The translations under genes and the position numbers were made by a program. The notes beneath the pieces are model-generated. The model made no database searches. It saw only the letters and a list, made by a program, of their open reading frames with translations, and was not told the DNA's origin. A stretch of 64,000 nucleotides of DNA from Candidatus Accumulibacter necessarius (GTDB lineage: Bacteria; Pseudomonadota; Gammaproteobacteria; Burkholderiales; Rhodocyclaceae): contig JAFLDL010000018.1 in the NCBI GenBank assembly GCA_017302435.1, forward strand, positions 1-64,000. Reading direction: 5' to 3'. Numbering within the stretch: the first letter of the stretch is position 1; each line of letters begins with the position of its first letter. Of the stretch, positions 17,912 through 64,000 are shown in pieces.

Positions 17912-19719
17912 ACAACCACGCCTGGTTGTTGCTTGGTCTTTTCATGACCGTACTGCTGCTCCTGGTCAGACCACTGGGAATCTATATCTCCAGGGTGATG
18001 ATGATGGAACGTCGCCAGACCCTTGTCAGCGGCTTCGAAGACGCAGTCTTCAGAGTGTGCGGCGTTCAGCGCGACGAAGACATGGGCTGGCTGAAATACG
18101 CGTTGGCCGTGCTGTTGTTCAACGCACTCGGCCTACTCGCCCTCTATGCCCTGCAGCGCCTGCAACTCTGGCTGCCCCTGAACCCGCAGGAGATGGCCAA
18201 TGTCAGTGCCGATTCTTCTTTCAACACGGCGGTCAGTTTCGTCACCAACACCAACTGGCAGGGCTATGGCGGCGAGTCGACGATGGGCTACCTGGTCCAG
18301 ATGCTGGGCCTGACGGTGCAGAACTTCCTTTCCGCGGCCACCGGCATCGTTGTCGTGACTGCCTTCATTCGTGGCTTTGCGCGCCATTCGGCGGCTGGCA
18401 TCGGCAATGCGTGGGCGGACCTGTTCCGCGCCACCACCTGGATTCTGCTGCCGCTGTCGCTGGTCTTCGCACTCTTTCTGGCGAGCCAGGGCGTGATCCA
18501 GAACTTCGCCGCCTACCAGGACGTGACGACGCTGCAAGTAACGAACTACGAAACACCCAGACTCGGCACCGACGGGCAAGCGCTGAAGGACGAGAACGGC
18601 AATCCGGTGACGGAGCCGGCGTCCACACCCATCCAGACCCTGGCCATGGGTCCGGTTGCCTCACAGGAGGCGATCAAGATGCTCGGCACCAACGGCGGCG
18701 GCTTCTTCAACGCCAACTCAGCCCATCCCTTCGAGAACCCGACGCCGCTCACGAACTTCGTCCAGATGCTGTCGATTTTCCTGATTCCCGGCGCGCTGTG
18801 CATTGCCTTCGGCTGCATCGTCGGCGACGAACGCCAGGGTTGGACGCTGTTTGCCGCGATGGCCTTGCTCTTCGTCACCTTTGCCATTGCCGCAATCGGC
18901 TTCGAGCAGCAAGGCAATCCCTTGCTGGCGAAGGTCGGCGACGCTGACACGGTGAGTATGACTACCACCGCCTTGACCGACGGCAACATGGAAGGTAAGG
19001 AAACGCGCTTCGGCATTGCCGATTCGGCCCTCTTTGCGGCCATCACCACGGCCGCGTCCTGCGGTGCGGTCAATGCCATGCACGATTCCTTCACACCGCT
19101 CGGCGGTGCCGTGCCGCTGGTCTTGATGCAACTCGGCGAAGTGGTTTTCGGCGGCGTCGGTTCCGGCCTCTACGGCATGCTGATCTTCGCCGTGCTGGCG
19201 GTATTCATCGCTGGCCTGATGATCGGACGGACGCCGGAATACCTGGGCAAGAAGATCGAGGCGCACGAGATGAAAATGACGTCGATCGCCATTCTCGCCA
19301 CGCCCCTGCTGGTGCTGGTCGGCACGGCCATTGCCGTGATGACCGAGGCTGGCCGCACCGGCATCGCCAACCCCGGTGCGCACGGCTTTTCCGAAATCCT
19401 CTACGCCCTGTCGTCGGCAGCCAACAACAACGGCAGCGCCTTCGCCGGACTCTCGGCCAACACGCCTTTCTACAATGGACTGCTGGCGGTCGCGATGTGG
19501 TTCGGCCGTTTCGGCGTGATCATCCCGGTGCTGGCGATGGCCGGGTCGCTGGCAGGCAAGAAGCGGATCTTCGTGACCGCCGGGACGCTGCCGACGCACG
19601 GCCCACTGTTCGTCACCCTGCTGATCGGTGTGGTGTTGCTGGTTGGTCTGCTCAACTATGTGCCTGCGCTGGCGCTCGGCCCGATGGTCGAGCATCTGGT
19701 GCTATGGTCGGCCCATTGA
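17908..19719 (+). CDS. kdpA: Potassium-transporting ATPase subunit A (K+ channel subunit)
   Basis: 603 residues, about ten membrane segments, of the superfamily of K+ transporters. Selectivity-filter-like loops are visible: [50 protein letters not shown] and [14 protein letters not shown]. KdpA selects and passes K+; transport is powered by KdpB. It overlaps kdpF (ATGA) and is followed 16 bases later by kdpB. Length is normal for the family. Confidence 0.96.
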
Positions 19720-57712: not shown

Positions 57713-60700
57713 TCAAAAGCCTTCCCACATCTTCTGCAGGCGTTTGCTCGACACCGGCACCGGCGTCCGCAGTTCCTGGGCGAACAGCTGGACGCGCAAT
57801 TCCTCGAGCAGCCAGCGGAACTGCTCGAGTTGCGCGTCGCTGACGCCCTGCCTGGCGAGCACACTGGCGCGGCGCTCGTAATGGGTCCATAGCGGCGCCA
57901 GCTCGGCCAGCAGGCGCGCATCACGCGCCGCGCCCAACGCACCGCCCGCTTTCAGCTTGTCGAGACGCAGCGCAATCGCCCGCAGATAGCGCGGATAGTG
58001 CTGCAGACGCTCGAAAGGCGTCTCGATGATGAAGCGCTGGTTGAGCAGCCGCGCCAGTTGCCCGTCGATGTCCTGCACCGTCGTGGCAAAGGCCTTGAAG
58101 GCCGGCAGCTTCTTCTGCAGTGCCTGCCAGTCGCTGAGGATCTGTCCGACCAGGCGGCAGATCTCCTGCGCCAGCAGGCCGATCCGTGGCTTCGCCTCAA
58201 GGCAGCGCGTGCGAAAACCCGCGGCATCGGTCGGCCAGGGTTCGACCAAGCAGGCGCGCGCGCAGCTCAGGTCGATCAACTGCCGCCGCAGTTCATCAAG
58301 CGTGCCAAGCGCCATGAACTGCATCGCCATCTGGTTGAGCCCCGGCAGGTTCTTCTCGAGATACTTGAGTTGTTCGCGGAACTGCAGCATGAACAGGCGC
58401 AGCAACCCCGCCCGGTGTGCCTGCTGCGCCTCGGCCGGCGTATCGTAGACGCGCAGCGAGACGCTGTCGCCGTCGTCGACCAGGCCGGGGTAGCCGAGCA
58501 CCCGCTGACCGCTACCGACGCTCACCTCCATCAGCTCGGGCAGTTCGTCGAAGGTCCAGTCGCGCATCCCGGCATACTCGCCCGGCGTTTCGTGCAGCTC
58601 CGAGAACTCGTGCTTGGCTTCGCGCCCCCACTCGGCGCGCAGTTCGTTCAGCTGGCGGCTCATCCCGAGCTGCCGCCCGTTCTCGTCAACCAGGCGAAAG
58701 TTGAACGACAGGTGCGCCGGCAAGGCATCCGGGCGAAAAGCGTCGGGGGTGATCTCCCAGCCGCGCGCGTTGAGCCCGCGCGACTGCAGAATGAAGTGGA
58801 TCAGCGCCAGGACCAGCGGCTTGTCGACCGGCGGCACCTGCGCCACGAACTCGGCGGCGAATTCGGGCACCGGCACCAGCTTGGCGCGCAGCCGCTGCGG
58901 CAGCGTCTTCACCAGCTGCACCACCTTCTCCTTGAGCAGGCCGGGCACCAGCCACTCGCAGCGCGCAAGCGGAATCTGGTTCAACTGCGCCAGCGGCACG
59001 GTCAGCGTCACGCCATCGCGCGGGCTGCCGGGTTCGAAGTGGTAGGCCAGCCCGTAATCGACCCCGGCGAGCCGCAGCTGATGCGGGAAGGCCTCGCTGG
59101 TCACGCCGGCGGCCTCGTGCCGCATCAGGTCTTCGCGCTGCAGGTAGAGCAGACGCGGCGTCTCGCGCTCGGCCTCGCGCCGCCACTTGTCGAAGGCAGC
59201 GCCGCTGTAGAGGTCCGGCGGGATCAGGCGGTCGTAGAAGGCAAAGATCAACTCGTCGTCGACCAGCACGTCGGGCCGGCGGGACTTGTGCTCGAGCGTT
59301 TCGATCTCGAGCATCAACTGCTGGTTGTGCGTGTAGAAACCCCAGCGACGCTCGAACTCCTCGCTGACCTCACCGCCGACCAGCGCCTGGCGGATGAAAA
59401 TCTCGCGCGCCGCCGGCGGATCCAGCGGCCCGAAGTTCACCCGCCGGCGGGCATCGACGACGATCCCATACAGGGTAATCCGCTCGAAAGCGATCGCCTG
59501 CATCGCCTTCTTTTCCCAGTGCGGGTCGAACCAGCTGCGCTTGAGGAGATGCGCGCCGACCCGTTCCAGCCACTCGGGCTCGATGCGTGCGACGCAGCGT
59601 GCAAAAAGGCGCGTGGTCTCGCTGATCTCGGCGGCAACGATCCACTTGCCGGCCTTCTTCTGCAGCGCCGAGCCCGGATGGATCAGGAACTTGATGCCAC
59701 GCGCGCCGAGATAATGCGCCGACTCTTCGGATTTGCAGCCGAGGTTGCCGAGCAACCCGGCGAGCAGCGCGCGATGGATGGCGTCGTAGGTCGCCGGCAA
59801 GGCGTTCTCCTGCCAATGGTGCTCGGCCGCCAGCGCGTGCAACTGGCTGTGGATATCGCGCCACTCGCGCATGCGCAGCGCCGAGAGGAAATTCTCGTGG
59901 CACGCCTCGACCAGCTTGCGCTGTGACTTGCGGTGTTCGACCTCGGCCTGGTACCAGTCCCAGAGCCTGAGCCAGGAGAGAAACTCCGACTTCTCGTCGG
60001 CGAACTTGCGGTGCGCGGCGTCGGCCGTTCCCTGCCGCTCCTGCGGCCGCTCGCGCGGGTCCTGCACGGACAATGCGGCGGCGATCACCAGTACCTCGCG
60101 CAGGCAGCCCTCGTCGCGGGCGGCGACGATCATCCGCCCGAGCCGCGGGTCGAGCGGCATCTTCGCAAGTTCCTGGCCGGTCGGTGTCAGCGCATGTTCG
60201 GCCGTCACCGCACCGAGTTCGAGCAGCAACTGGTAACCGTCGCTTATCGCCTTGCGCGGCGGCGCCTCGAGGAAGGGAAAATCCTCGACGTTGCCCAGAC
60301 GCAACGCCTTCATGCGCAGGATCACGCCGGCCAGCGACGAGCGCACGATCTCCGGGTCGGCATACGTTGGCCGCAGGGCGAAATCCTGTTCTTCGTACAG
60401 GCGGATGCACACCCCCGCCGCCACCCGGCCGCAGCGCCCGGAACGCTGGTTGGCCGAAGCCTGGGCGATTTTCTCGATCTGCAACTGTTCGACCTTGTTG
60501 CGATACGAGTAGCGCTTGACGCGCGCCAGCCCCGAATCGACGACGTAGCGGATTCCCGGCACGGTCAGCGAGGTCTCGGCGACATTGGTCGCCAGCACGA
60601 TGCGGCGGCCGACGTGCGGCTTGAAGATGCGGCTCTGCTCCTCGGCCGACAGGCGGGCAAACAAGGGCAGGATCTCGGTGTGCGGCGGGTGATGCTTGCG

Positions 60701-61642
60701 CAGCGCTTCGGCCGCGTCACGGATCTCGCGCTCGCCAGGCAGGAAGACCAGCACGTCGCCCGGCCCGACGCGATGCAGCTCGTCGCAGGCGTCGGCAATC
60801 GCGTCGTAGAGATCGCGTTCGTCGTCCGGTGCGGCGTTGCTCGCCGCGTTCGCCACCGCATCGCCTGGCGCCTTCTGCAACGGGCGATAACGCAGCTCGA
60901 CCGGAAACAGCCGGCCCGAAACCTCGATCACCGGCGCGCCACCGAAGTGCTGCGAAAAGCGCTCGGCATCGATCGTCGCCGAAGTGATGATCAGCTTCAG
61001 GTCGCGCCGCTTCGGCAGTAGTTGCTTGAGATAGCCGAGCAGGAAATCGATGTTCAGGCTGCGCTCGTGCGCCTCGTCGATGATCAGCGTGTCGTATTGC
61101 TCCAGCCAGGGGTCGCCCTGCGTCTCGGCGAGCAGGATGCCGTCGGTCATCAGCTTGACGAAGGCATCGGGCGAGCTGCGGTCGCTGAAACGGATCTTGT
61201 AGCCGACCAGGCGGCCGGGTTCGCTCTGCAGCTCCTGCGCGATGCGCGCCGCCGTCGCCCGCGCGGCGATCCGCCGCGGCTGCGTGTGGCCGATCAGGCC
61301 AGTCGTTCCGCGGCCGAGTTCGAGACAGATCTTCGGGATCTGCGTCGTCTTGCCGGAGCCGGTTTCGCCGCAGACGATGACCACAGGGTGCTTCGCGATC
61401 AGCGCCGCGATTTCGTCGCGGCGAGTGTTGACCGGCAGGTCGTCGGCAAACTCCGGTTTTGGCAGGCGCGCCCGGCGCGCCGCGACCGCCGCGCGCGATC
61501 TGCCGAGCAACTCGTCGCGCTGCGCCTGCAGCGCATCGCGCTTGCTGCCGAAAACGTGCCGCAGGTCGCGCGCCATCGACCGCAAACGGCGCTGATCGAG
61601 TGCCAGGCAGTCGGCCAAGGGGTCAGCCGGCAGGGATGGCAT
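57713..61642 (-). CDS. hrpA: ATP-dependent RNA helicase HrpA (DEAH box)
   Basis: 1,309 residues, about the length of E. coli HrpA. Motifs: Walker A GETGSGKTTQIP, Ia HTQPRRIAARATA, DEAH in LIIDEAHERSLNIDFLLGYL, SATIDAERF, VLATNVAETSLTVPGIRYVVDSG and QRSGRCGRVA. The helicase-associated domain, OB fold and the long DUF3418 C-terminal region (GMRDWTFDELPELMEVS, FRLVDENGRQLGMSR) follow. HrpA is linked to mRNA processing and rescue of stalled or collided ribosomes. The start is ATG 61642. Monocistronic; no sign of decay. Confidence 0.95.
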   Translation of the reverse strand: MPSLPADPLADCLALDQRRLRSMARDLRHVFGSKRDALQAQRDELLGRSRAAVAARRARLPKPEFADDLPVNTRRDEIAALIAKHPVVIVCGETGSGKTTQIPKICLELGRGTTGLIGHTQPRRIAARATAARIAQELQSEPGRLVGYKIRFSDRSSPDAFVKLMTDGILLAETQGDPWLEQYDTLIIDEAHERSLNIDFLLGYLKQLLPKRRDLKLIITSATIDAERFSQHFGGAPVIEVSGRLFPVELRYRPLQKAPGDAVANAASNAAPDDERDLYDAIADACDELHRVGPGDVLVFLPGEREIRDAAEALRKHHPPHTEILPLFARLSAEEQSRIFKPHVGRRIVLATNVAETSLTVPGIRYVVDSGLARVKRYSYRNKVEQLQIEKIAQASANQRSGRCGRVAAGVCIRLYEEQDFALRPTYADPEIVRSSLAGVILRMKALRLGNVEDFPFLEAPPRKAISDGYQLLLELGAVTAEHALTPTGQELAKMPLDPRLGRMIVAARDEGCLREVLVIAAALSVQDPRERPQERQGTADAAHRKFADEKSEFLSWLRLWDWYQAEVEHRKSQRKLVEACHENFLSALRMREWRDIHSQLHALAAEHHWQENALPATYDAIHRALLAGLLGNLGCKSEESAHYLGARGIKFLIHPGSALQKKAGKWIVAAEISETTRLFARCVARIEPEWLERVGAHLLKRSWFDPHWEKKAMQAIAFERITLYGIVVDARRRVNFGPLDPPAAREIFIRQALVGGEVSEEFERRWGFYTHNQQLMLEIETLEHKSRRPDVLVDDELIFAFYDRLIPPDLYSGAAFDKWRREAERETPRLLYLQREDLMRHEAAGVTSEAFPHQLRLAGVDYGLAYHFEPGSPRDGVTLTVPLAQLNQIPLARCEWLVPGLLKEKVVQLVKTLPQRLRAKLVPVPEFAAEFVAQVPPVDKPLVLALIHFILQSRGLNARGWEITPDAFRPDALPAHLSFNFRLVDENGRQLGMSRQLNELRAEWGREAKHEFSELHETPGEYAGMRDWTFDELPELMEVSVGSGQRVLGYPGLVDDGDSVSLRVYDTPAEAQQAHRAGLLRLFMLQFREQLKYLEKNLPGLNQMAMQFMALGTLDELRRQLIDLSCARACLVEPWPTDAAGFRTRCLEAKPRIGLLAQEICRLVGQILSDWQALQKKLPAFKAFATTVQDIDGQLARLLNQRFIIETPFERLQHYPRYLRAIALRLDKLKAGGALGAARDARLLAELAPLWTHYERRASVLARQGVSDAQLEQFRWLLEELRVQLFAQELRTPVPVSSKRLQKMWEGF

Positions 61643-61785
61643 TCGCGCTTGCGGAGAAGGGGAGCGGACTGAGGATCATCGGTCGAGGAAATTGGGCGAT
61701 AGGAGCCAGACCTGTGCGGCAAGGCTCCACGGTCGCGCCCGGCACATGGGCATCCGGGCGCCGCGGCACGCTAGGGTCGTAGCGT

Positions 61786-61866
61786 CGTAGGTTGGGTTAG
61801 GCCGCAGGCCGTAAGCCAACATCCCACGGAAAAAAGTCCGCTTACGCTGCGCCAACCCGACCTGCG
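61786..61866. repeat. Imperfect inverted repeat / hairpin between hrpA and intI
   Basis: GTTGGGTTAGGCC (61791-61803) and GGCCGTAAGCCAAC (61807-61820) form a hairpin. A third arm (CTTACGCTGCGCCAACCC, 61841-61858) is an imperfect inverse copy of the first, followed by GACCTGCG mirroring CGTAGG at 61786. Related GTAGG-TTGGGTTAG repeats are dispersed in many proteobacterial genomes. It sits beyond the 3' ends of neither gene's coding region and has no coding content. Confidence 0.55.
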
Positions 61867-61908
61867 AAGGTGCCCGCGCATGCCCGTGAAAAGTCTCACC
61901 CGCGCATT

Positions 61909-62928
61909 CTACACCAGTGCGTCGAGCGGACTCCGAACCCCTCGTCCACCGCTGTTGAGCACGTGCGTGTAGATCATCGTCGTGGCCACATCCGAATGAC
62001 CCAGCAGCTCCTGCACGGTGCGAATGTCGTAGCCGCTTTCGAGCAGACAAGTGGCGAACGAATGGCGCATGGTGTGCGGAGTGGCCGGCTTGCTGATGCC
62101 GGCGTGGCGTAGCGCGTTGCGCATTGTGCGCTGAATACTTTGGGCCTCGACATGGTGTCGGCGTACCGCTCCGGAGCGTGGGTCGACCGATCGCCTGGCG
62201 GCGACGAAGACATACTGCCACGCCCATTCGCATGCGGCATGCGGATACTTTCTCGCCAGCGCCCACGGCAGGTAGACTTCGCCGCAACCTGCGGCAAGGT
62301 CTTCATCGTGCAGCGCCGTCACCCTTGCCAGATGACTTTTCAGCGGGGCGGCCAGCGTATTGGGCAACATCGTCACCCTGTCCTTGAAACCCTTCCCCTC
62401 GCGCACGAGGATTTCGCCGCGCGCAAAGTCGACATCCTTCACCCGCAAGCGCAGACACTCCATGATGCGCATGCCGGTACCGTAGAGCAGCCGCAGGATC
62501 AGCCCGGCGGTGCCCTCGATCAGCACCAGCAGGCGCTGGACTTCGTCAGGCGTGAGAACGACTGGCAAGCGCTTCGAAGCCTTCGCCGATTCAACGTCAT
62601 CCAGCCACGGCAGCTCGGTCTCCAGCACCTCCTTGTAGAGGAAAAGCAAGGCGCTCTTCGCCTGGTTCTGAGTCGATGCCGAAACACGCCCGGCGACCGC
62701 AAGGTGAGTAAGAAACGCCTCGACCTCGTGCGCCCCCATTTCACGAGGGTGCCGCTTGTTGTGAAAGAGGATGAAGCGTCGTACCCAGCCGCAATAGGCC
62801 TGCTCCGTGCGTATGCTATAGTGCTTGAAACGGATGCGGTCGCTGAGTTGATCGAGCAGCCGCCGGGGTGGTTGCGGCGCCTGGGGGACATTGACGCAAT
62901 TGCCGGAAATTTTAGTGGACCGGTCCAT
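61909..62928 (-). CDS. intI: Integron integrase (tyrosine recombinase)
   Basis: 339 residues. Tyrosine-recombinase catalytic residues are present: Arg in [19 protein letters not shown], His-x-x-Arg in [14 protein letters not shown], and His/Tyr in [14 protein letters not shown]. The segment between, [20 protein letters not shown] to [20 protein letters not shown], is the extra IntI-specific domain, and the C-terminal [16 protein letters not shown] matches IntI proteins closely. IntI recombines attC cassettes into attI. I start at ATG 62928 (MDRSTKISG), with GAGGTG upstream; ATG 62940 lacks a ribosome binding site. It is divergent from a cassette array on the plus strand. A LexA-type box 39 bases upstream indicates SOS control. 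Confidence 0.95.
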
Positions 62929-62966
62929 GGCACACCTCATTGTTTTGTCAGAGACTTTTTCGTTTG

Positions 62967-62982
62967 CTGTACATGTGTACAG
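62967..62982. promoter_or_regulatory. LexA-type (SOS) box in the intI promoter region
   Basis: CTGTACATGTGTACAG fits the CTG-N10-CAG LexA consensus with near-complete dyad symmetry. It lies 39 bases upstream of the intI start. LexA repression of intI is established for several integrons, so integrase expression is probably induced by DNA damage. Confidence 0.82.
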
Positions 62983-62988
62983 TATAAT
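62983..62988 (+). promoter_or_regulatory. -10-like hexamer facing the cassettes
   Basis: TATAAT directly abuts the LexA box and points into the cassette array, 45 bases before the array starts. A convincing -35 was not found (TCGTTT at 62960-62965 has 17-base spacing but matches poorly). It is the best candidate for the cassette promoter Pc. Confidence 0.4.
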
Positions 62989-63033
62989 GATGCAAAGCTT
63001 TGCGTCAAGTAGGATTGCTACTTCACGTTAGCC
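62989..63033 (+). other. attI-side recombination region
   Basis: The first cassette begins at GTTAGCC (63027-63033), where crossover falls between G and TT. This site is the exact reverse complement of GGCTAAC, the R'' box of the downstream attC, as expected when both derive from one cassette. The bases to the left, up to the promoter region, form attI. Its internal weak integrase-binding sites cannot be delimited by eye. Confidence 0.7.
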
Positions 63034-63799
63034 CTGCCGATGGTCCTGCGCGCAATCCTCCGGCCTCTCGTATGGCTCTACCTCTGCGCTGTATCGCTGA
63101 CGGTCTGGGGCGAGAGTACCTGTTACGGATCCGTGAGTAACGGCCGACTGGAGAATGGAGTCGGGCTGCCGGGGAACGGCCGAAACTTCAGCGCCTATAG
63201 CTCCGCTGCGGGAGTGCTTCGGCGGACTTATGTTCACTCCAAGGTCGCTGAGATCGTCTCTGCCGCGTATAGCGCGCTTGAGAAGACAGCTCCTGGTAAG
63301 GTATTCGTCTACGGGGAGACCGGTTGGCCATCCGGAGGTCGATTTCGGCCGCACAAGACACACCAGAACGGGCTTTCGGTGGATTTCATGGTGCCAGTTG
63401 TCGACAGCGCCGAACGGTCGGTGGCATTGCCGGGCAACGCGCTTAACCGGTTCGGGTACGACCTCGAGTTTGACGAAGTCGGGAAGTATCAGACTCTGCA
63501 GATTGATTTCGAGGCGATGGCGGAGCATATCTACCAGCTGCAACTTGCCGCACGCGCTCGCTCGGCGGATATTGCGCTAGTGATCTTTGATCCGCGCTTC
63601 CTGAAGTCACTACTCGCCGCGCCCAGGGGGGCATACCTCAGGCAGAATGTGAAATTCCTTCAGGGGCCGGCCTGGTGGAGACATGACGAGCACTACCACA
63701 TTGATTTCGCGGTCCCCTGCAGAACAATGCAGGGCTAACCAATGCGTCAACCGGAGGGTACCCGCCGCGTTACGCGCCGGCGCCCGGTTACGCATGTCG
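63028..63799 (+). mobile_element. Integron gene cassette 1
   Basis: The cassette runs from TTAGCC after the attI junction to the G that opens the next GTTGGGC. Its start GTTAGCCCTGC and the sequence GCAGGGCTAAC at 63729-63739 are perfect 11-base complements, which is how a circular cassette's attC arms would pair. It carries one gene, in cassette orientation, with 12 bases before its ATG and its stop inside attC. It therefore depends on the integron promoter. Confidence 0.85.
63040..63738 (+). CDS. Exported MepA-like penicillin-insensitive murein endopeptidase (cassette gene)
   Basis: 232 residues. A signal-peptide-like N-terminus (MVLRAILRPLVWLYLCAVSL, likely processed after WGES) is followed by the motif set of LAS/MepA zinc peptidases: GETGWPSGGRFRPHKTHQNG then LSVDFMVPV (His...Asp ligands), and WWRHDEHYHIDFAVPC (HxH). 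E. coli MepA cuts D-Ala-meso-DAP crosslinks in murein, and similar chemistry is likely here. Start ATG 63040 has no visible ribosome binding site, and the TAA stop lies within attC. Similar cassette proteins may be misnamed in databases; the metal-site pattern supports peptidase. Confidence 0.82.
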   Translation: MVLRAILRPLVWLYLCAVSLTVWGESTCYGSVSNGRLENGVGLPGNGRNFSAYSSAAGVLRRTYVHSKVAEIVSAAYSALEKTAPGKVFVYGETGWPSGGRFRPHKTHQNGLSVDFMVPVVDSAERSVALPGNALNRFGYDLEFDEVGKYQTLQIDFEAMAEHIYQLQLAARARSADIALVIFDPRFLKSLLAAPRGAYLRQNVKFLQGPAWWRHDEHYHIDFAVPCRTMQG

Positions 63800-63805
63800 T
63801 TGGGC
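63733..63805 (+). other. attC recombination site of cassette 1
   Basis: R'' GGCTAAC (63733-63739), L'' ATGCGTCAACC (63742-63752), L' GGTTACGCAT (63786-63795), R' GTTGGGC (63799-63805). L'' and L' pair except for one extra C in L'', the extrahelical base expected in attC hairpins. R' matches the GTTRRRY core. Total length is about 73 bases with a GC-rich centre. Confidence 0.85.
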
Positions 63806-63814
63806 ATCTGAATA

Positions 63815-64000
63815 ATGACTAAACGCCAAGTAGCAGTTGGTCACCTGAGGACAGGAAAACCCTTACACTTGATTGCGCAAGAAATGGATGTATCGTTCCA
63901 AACGATCGTCCGCTACATGAAACTACAAGTTGCCGAAGGCGGCGTAACAGCTTCAGAAGTGTTCTTCGGAATCGATCCCGCACGCCGGAATCAACTTCAC
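63815..64000 (+). CDS. Cassette 2 protein with helix-turn-helix, truncated by the window end
   Basis: From ATG 63815, 62 codons are open to the window end. GKPLHLIAQEMDVSFQTIVR followed by YMKLQVAEG resembles a helix-turn-helix, and ASEVFFGID follows. It lies 10 bases after the attC R' box, as expected for a cassette gene, and may be a small DNA-binding protein such as an antitoxin or regulator. Its base composition is less GC-rich than the neighbourhood, consistent with mobility. The 3' end and its attC are outside the window. Confidence 0.6.
   Translation, partial: MTKRQVAVGHLRTGKPLHLIAQEMDVSFQTIVRYMKLQVAEGGVTASEVFFGIDPARRNQLH

Follow-up and report, generated by a model that had tools for sequence, protein, structure and literature searches.

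A LexA-linked chromosomal integron beside hrpA and the probable replacement of its platform in place

Introduction

The sedentary chromosomal integrons of Vibrio carry large cassette arrays with homogeneous attC sites. Their integrase gene, which encodes the LexA-controlled IntIA, diverges from the array, and the layout is completed by an attI site, attC-bearing cassettes and a LexA box over the intI -10 region, as described in PMC3108266; this layout recurs at the locus reported below. For other integrons, the same paper describes a LexA motif that overlaps the intI promoter, and thus the mechanism linking LexA to integrons is already known. The present locus differs from the Vibrio integrons in that its array holds only 13 cassettes and its attC sites are of mixed size (55-87 nt). 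According to PMC11551772, the genomic location of Vibrio integrons is likewise plastic.

A second point of reference is provided by the Xanthomonas integrons at ilvD. PMC12444791 reports a genus-wide site marked by one conserved gene, an intI exchanged for a distant one and an abrupt boundary, all of which have counterparts at our locus, and a similar intI swap is inferred there at ilvD in Xanthomonas arboricola. By comparison, the site here is hrpA, a second integrase lineage occupies other sites in the genus, and the proposed swap alters the presence of an exact LexA box. Conflict between intI trees and host trees has also been reported already, in PMC2426708. Given these Xanthomonas, Vibrio and tree-conflict precedents (PMC12444791, PMC11551772 and PMC2426708), the process is not new. 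In a limited search of open-licence papers, no description of a LexA box change accompanying an intI swap was found.

Here, we analyze a window comprising the first 64,000 bases of contig C10 (84,770 bases), from a draft genome of 4.56 Mb in 88 contigs. The locus at its right edge provides a clean and complete case of a chromosomal integron linked to LexA, ordinary in its kind but with a modestly interesting history: the hrpA site occurs in the genus in both states, exact LexA box present or absent, and offers a natural comparison of how SOS control might affect array turnover. For the overall account, in which a chromosomal integron on the hrpA side is LexA-linked and has had its platform replaced in place, we estimate a probability of about 0.88.

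An integron integrase gene adjoins hrpA

In a profile search, the intI product matched the integron integrase model TIGR02249 with 487.8 bits (cut-off 265), while the XerC and XerD profiles gave 147.8 and 147.6 bits, both far under their own cut-offs. Among solved structures, the sequence comes closest to that of the Vibrio IntI 2A3V (PDB, E 3.4e-91), and the alignment with it extends across the integron-specific region. The predicted structure of IntI also has 2A3V as its top fold match; the quality of the model is modest (mean pLDDT 78.3, pTM 0.59), so that this match adds little beyond the sequence result. The gene is a single open frame with its catalytic residues present, and R158, H289, R292, H315 and Y324 fall among the columns that are invariant across 20 aligned IntI sequences. 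These results agree with the first-pass annotation, which had called the gene an intI with its specific domain: a close profile match exists, and the alignment covers that domain.

A search of the genome recovered one intI, the five other matches being short and 30-57% identical. Because the integron adjoins hrpA, a gene matched in all 28 genomes of the genus, it is in all likelihood chromosomal, as had been proposed. An Rfam search of part of the window returned no match. Taking these data together with those on the array below, we regard it as virtually certain that the locus is an integron. The coordinates of its features are collected in Table 1.

Table 1. Features of the hrpA-side integron, in contig C10 coordinates. 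Cassette boundaries are set at G|TT; "no family" refers to Pfam and PADLOC at E 0.1.
Feature	Position	Strand	Remarks
hrpA	57713-61642	-	flanking chromosomal gene
hrpA-intI spacer	61643-61908		also present at hrpA in the lineage-B integrons of G013 and G008; absent from lineage-A sites
intI, integron integrase	61909-62940	-	343 aa from first ATG; alternative ATG at 62925
A-to-B similarity switch	61957-61985	-	near intI 3' end; B is the hrpA-site type of G013 and G008
LexA box CTGT-N8-ACAG, CTGTACATGTGTACAG	62967-62982		exact match; begins 42 nt upstream of first intI ATG, coding strand
Probable intI promoter TTGACG-16-TATACT	62981-63008	-	consensus match only; overlapped by LexA box
attI region	63003-63033 (left edge approximate)	+	R box GTTAGCC 63027-63033; crossover G|TT
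Cassette 1	63028-63799	+	ORF 63040-63738, M74 (MepA-like) murein endopeptidase relative
attC1	63733-63805	-	folds as the bottom strand, with one extrahelical base; model R1 47.7 bits (site in training set)
Cassette 2	63800-64681	+	ORF from 63815, 260 aa; weak Swt1-like HEPN
Cassette 3	64682-65001		no ORF of at least 110 aa wholly inside
Cassette 4	65002-65593		168 aa, no family
Cassette 5	65594-66776		327 aa, no family
Cassette 6	66777-67575		two ORFs, 108 and 111 aa, no family
Cassette 7	67576-67991		75 aa, no family
Cassette 8	67992-70131		DinB-like and IS110 element
Cassette 9	70132-73868		XRE antitoxin-like gene, group IIC intron, IS1380-like element
Cassette 10	73869-74447		SMI1/KNR4
Cassette 11	74448-75168		LysE/RhtB-type exporter, under curated cut-offs
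Cassette 12	75169-75765		GFA
Cassette 13	75766-76316		PPOX-class flavoprotein, weak

attI, attC sites and an array of 13 cassettes

The sequence of C10 past 64 kb was included, which allowed the continuation of the array to be examined directly. The array comprises 13 cassettes (contig 63028-76316), of which two are interrupted by insertions (IS elements and a group IIC intron). It contains 12 whole attC sites and one interrupted site, that of cassette 9. In all nine lineage-A leaders (see below) that reach the attI region, the window's included, similarity holds up to GTT and is lost past it (by eye). The attI junction that the first-pass annotation had placed here is therefore supported, as are two further elements of its description: the ends of cassette 1 form a perfect inverted match of 11 bases, and the long helix of the folded attC1 contains a single unpaired base, the fold energy being only mildly better than that of shuffled sequences (z -2.04). 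All the elements named in that annotation stand at, or very close to, the positions it gave. More cassettes had been expected past 64 kb, and 12 further ones lie on the extended contig, where an attC covariance-model search indeed found further sites. Several cassette proteins have no family match.

We then compared cassette ends with cassette starts in 12 cassettes, excluding the interrupted cassette 9. The R boxes were placed visually with the integron consensus as a guide, a procedure that biases the comparison toward a good match. The last seven bases of the cassettes agreed with their own first seven at 79 of 84 positions and with the start of the next cassette at 65 of 84. The cassette's own start was matched exactly in nine of the 12 and the next start in two, and none of 50,000 permutations reached 79. 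In folding comparisons, for which the edges of attC6, attC11 and attC12 were set one base off (as they were in the alignment), attC2, 3, 6, 8 and 11 folded far better than shuffled sequences, with attC2 the best of all sites; attC1, attC4 and attC5 also surpassed the shuffles (z between -2.0 and -2.7), and attC7 and attC10 did so slightly; attC12 and attC13 folded no better than the shuffles.

The covariance model (R1) was trained on 12 sites, all from this array, and in the rest of the window it produced a single match (E 0.8). When applied to 26 named relatives, a subset of the 80 retrieved and mostly those with long flanks, it gave 91 matches at E <= 0.001, corresponding to 90 sites (one matched on both strands) in 23 of the 26 genomes. 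All 90 sites have the expected orientation and are located 5' of intI (positions by eye); at the same threshold, no attC was found in relatives L019, L044 and L055. Twenty congener stretches yielded 62 matches at E <= 0.1, unsorted by side.

With respect to cassette content, the ORF of cassette 1 matched PF03411 with 42.5 bits (cut-off 25) and PRK09429 (NCBIfam) with 44.6 bits, under the cut-off of 272. Relatives of its protein occur in five others of 300 genomes sampled from the order. The relative in L212 sits between attC sites, which shows this gene to be capable of moving as a cassette; around the other four, the attC model had no match. For the proteins of cassettes 2 and 5, no relative was found in the 299 other genomes of the same sample. 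The cassette 2 ORF matched PF18731 with 21.3 bits, below the cut-off of 27.5, and is a weak PADLOC candidate. Both proteins (L007 2815-3597 and 4639-5622) show, by eye, an RX4H motif, which we take to be that of HEPN nucleases, the weak family match being confined to cassette 2. In cassette 9, a toxin-like frame upstream of the XRE antitoxin-like gene looks broken (by eye), and the antitoxin-like gene had HTH matches in a defence-family scan of the cassette proteins. The IS110 and IS1380-like elements of the locus are within the array. Just past it, at C10 ~77.3-79.5 kb (L007 16291-18482), an IS481-like transposase (under its curated cut-off) is followed by a TIGR03015-like ATPase.

By analogy with known integrons, IntI would join attI with folded, single-stranded attC, so that cassettes would be inserted, excised and shuffled; 13 are now stored.

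A LexA box overlaps the likely intI promoter

The box CTGTACATGTGTACAG is the sole exact CTGT-N8-ACAG in the 64 kb, where 0.57 are expected, and since 40 of 100 shuffles hold at least one exact match, its sequence alone proves little. Its position and its company are more specific. It covers the -10 element of TTGACG-16-TATACT, on the intI strand, and this is the only promoter-like match in 62880-63080 (mean of 0.1 in shuffles). The host's own lexA and recA each have an exact LexA box upstream, and one lexA gene in the genome exceeds the profile cut-off. The extended pattern TACTGT-N8-ACAG occurs at five places genome-wide, the intI box included (six matches, one place being matched on both strands), and the reversed control gave two matches.

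The box also recurs in the genus. Across ten lineage-A leaders, the window's among them, it is exact at the same place in seven and has one mismatch in three; its half-sites depart from the majority letter in three of 80 cells and its spacer in 13 of 80 (hand count). In the wider set, exact boxes are infrequent, at five of the 72 named relatives with enough upstream sequence, although shuffles yield 0.2%.

The likely intI promoter carries a putative LexA operator of the host's own type, and LexA very probably represses intI. The first-pass annotation had named both a LexA box and an SOS-linked intI; the operator match is borne out by the boxes at lexA and recA and by the congeners, while the regulation itself is read from sequence. 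If the locus behaves as known integrons do, LexA on the promoter would keep intI silent, and DNA damage or incoming single-stranded DNA would, through RecA, lift this block. Cassette shuffling would thereby be tied to stress.

A group IIC intron and possible signs of array decay

The group IIC intron of cassette 9 (C10 ~70821-72075; L007 9821-11075) is on the minus strand, within R'' of attC9 at GT|T. It is a group IIC-attC intron by strand, opposite to the cassettes, and by position, at the attC R''; introns of this class share the opposite strand and the insertion in R'' at GT|T, as described in PMC7923331. Compared with those introns, the copy seems internally deleted and its reverse transcriptase (RT) is fragmentary: RF02001 scored 72 bits, Rfam recognises the D1-D4 region only, and the RT is a fragment. 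The intron therefore appears to be internally deleted and defective. An intron start of the same sequence adjoins an attC on contig C54 (L206 near 2200).

These insertions raise the alternative that the platform is anatomically intact yet dormant, with a decaying array and with LexA control as a relic. The IS110 element, the IS1380-like element and the defective intron in cassettes 8 and 9 would fit such a state, as would the weak or degenerate last attC and the condition of lineage-A intI genes in congeners, one with a stop codon (G013) and others represented by partial or fragmented matches (G004, G016, G023). However, the window's own intI is one open frame with catalytic residues, the LexA half-sites vary less than the spacer between them in the leader counts given above, and congeners differ past attI, so that cassettes must have been gained or lost at this point after their divergence. 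We consider dormancy unlikely.

Two integrase lineages in the genus

A survey of the upstream side of hrpA covered all 28 genomes of the genus. In eight of them, hrpA is directly adjoined by an intI of 298 or more matched residues: the window's genome, G008 (where the neighbor is an hrpA fragment), G013, G016, G023, G024, G025 and G027. Remnants of intI stand beside hrpA in G003 and G004; no intI was found upstream of hrpA in 17 genomes (2.2-5.3 kb examined), and in G026 the contig ends. The hrpA-side intI genes of the seven congeners make up a lineage of their own, B, whose identity to the window's gene is 63-68%. In a tree of 43 IntI sequences, lineages A (11 rows) and B (seven rows) each fall on one side of a 100/99 branch. 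The window's IntI belongs to lineage A, as sister (99/96) to that of G005, whose gene sits at another site.

Lineage A occupies one place common to G005, G010, G020 and G026, a second common to G014, G016, G025 and G027, and separate places in G013 and G018; the partial lineage-A genes of G004 and G023 were placed roughly. The flanks of both shared places exist in the window's genome, and the stretches around them contain no attC and no intI. Within 300 nt upstream of the seven lineage-B genes there is no exact LexA box, and two of the seven have a box with one mismatch. Neither the position nor the vertical inheritance of intI is thus stable in the genus, with lineage A at several sites and hrpA accompanied by lineage A here and by lineage B in seven congeners.

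The genus looks rich in integrons. G010, a single contig of 5,169,514 bases, contains a number of intI genes or gene pieces that belong to different lineages. Among genomes of the same family in the IntI tree, G028 pairs with a Rhodocyclaceae row and G029 groups with Rhodocyclales rows; as evidence on the host these groupings are weak, because intI moves between hosts. At the end of the flank query for the first shared place, L118 ~18232-18360 has many matches per genome across the genus and is a dispersed repeat of ~130 nt.

A mosaic integrase gene suggests replacement in place

In alignments that extend from hrpA into intI, the window's spacer is shared with the lineage-B sites of G013 and G025 (contig C68), both at 84%, and of G008, at 76%; by these alignments and by sliding identity, lineage-A sites do not share it. 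The upstream part of the gene has a different affinity. In an informative-site comparison, the best breakpoint is 61985/61984, so that similarity switches from lineage A to lineage B within the last ~75 nt of intI. With G005 as the A parent and G013 as the B parent, the sites divide 299:19 above the switch, 0:6 below it within intI and 22:120 downstream of the stop, which leaves six informative sites as the basis of the switch inside intI. Taking G008 for the B parent instead gives 315:24, 1:5 and 26:106. A run of 27 nt ending at 61957 is identical in G005 and G013 at the switch. When G016, G023 or G024, whose spacers differ, was taken as the B parent, no switch was found inside intI and the best breakpoint lay at its very end. 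The switch is blurred (213:56 above, 8:15 below) when G020 takes the place of G005 in the comparison with G013.

This turn from A-like to B-like sequence over the final ~75 nt of intI is suggestive of a replacement in place through homologous recombination. The window's IntI is 93% identical to that of G005 although HrpA is 85% identical, which fits transfer; against G020, the values are 86% for IntI and 90% for HrpA. We consider it likely, from these alignments, that a lineage-A platform replaced a lineage-B platform in place at hrpA. The mosaic is seen with two B types as parents, and the order and mechanism of events were probably as follows. An integron of lineage B, of the G013/G008 type and devoid of an exact LexA box, would first have stood at hrpA. 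A box-bearing lineage-A platform would then have taken its place through homologous recombination, one crossover falling in the final ~75 nt of intI. In the distal flank of the array, no trace of an old lineage-B array was found: the matches between the array and the congener stretches compared are mostly of attC length, and the rest, of 154-211 bp, lie in the IS/intron part.

A reversed order, in which lineage A reached hrpA long ago and was replaced by lineage B in the other species, has to be weighed against this. G013 and G008 have the window's long spacer and carry lineage B, so that the junction alone leaves the direction unfixed. Both B subclades are nevertheless at hrpA, in seven genomes, and lineage A is at other sites in congeners, which makes this order quite improbable. 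That the lineage-A intI at hrpA is a chimera of the draft assembly is less probable still. The fragmentation of the assembly and the identical run shared by G005 and G013 at the switch would favor such an artifact, but the junction is well inside its contig, and a chimera should leave its other halves elsewhere, whereas the genome has only one intI-like place.

If lineage A did replace lineage B in place, SOS control may behave as an exchangeable module. A platform without a recognisable operator would have been replaced, via the conserved 3' end of intI, by one bearing an operator, leaving a mosaic integrase and an array under DNA-damage control. We lean slightly toward this reading.

Hairpin repeats and attC-like sites elsewhere

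The proposal that the enzyme is a Xer- or phage-type tyrosine recombinase and its repeats REP-like hairpins, for which one could cite the XerC and XerD matches and a REP-like palindrome between hrpA and intI, is scarcely credible, given that only the integron model passes its cut-off, that 2A3V is the top fold match, that the repeats are spaced like cassette ends and match each cassette's own start, and that in relatives they occur in one orientation beside intI. The own-start match and the sites in relatives led us to reject REP repeats as a reading of the hairpins.

The palindrome itself, at ~61790-61870 in the hrpA-intI spacer, also occurs in the spacer of G013 (by eye). Four more attC-like sites, without intI, were found near contig ends, at L206 2200-2287 and 2763-2826 (C54) and at L207 1160-1255 and 1888-1954 (C51); these may represent additional cassette clusters that the assembly has truncated.
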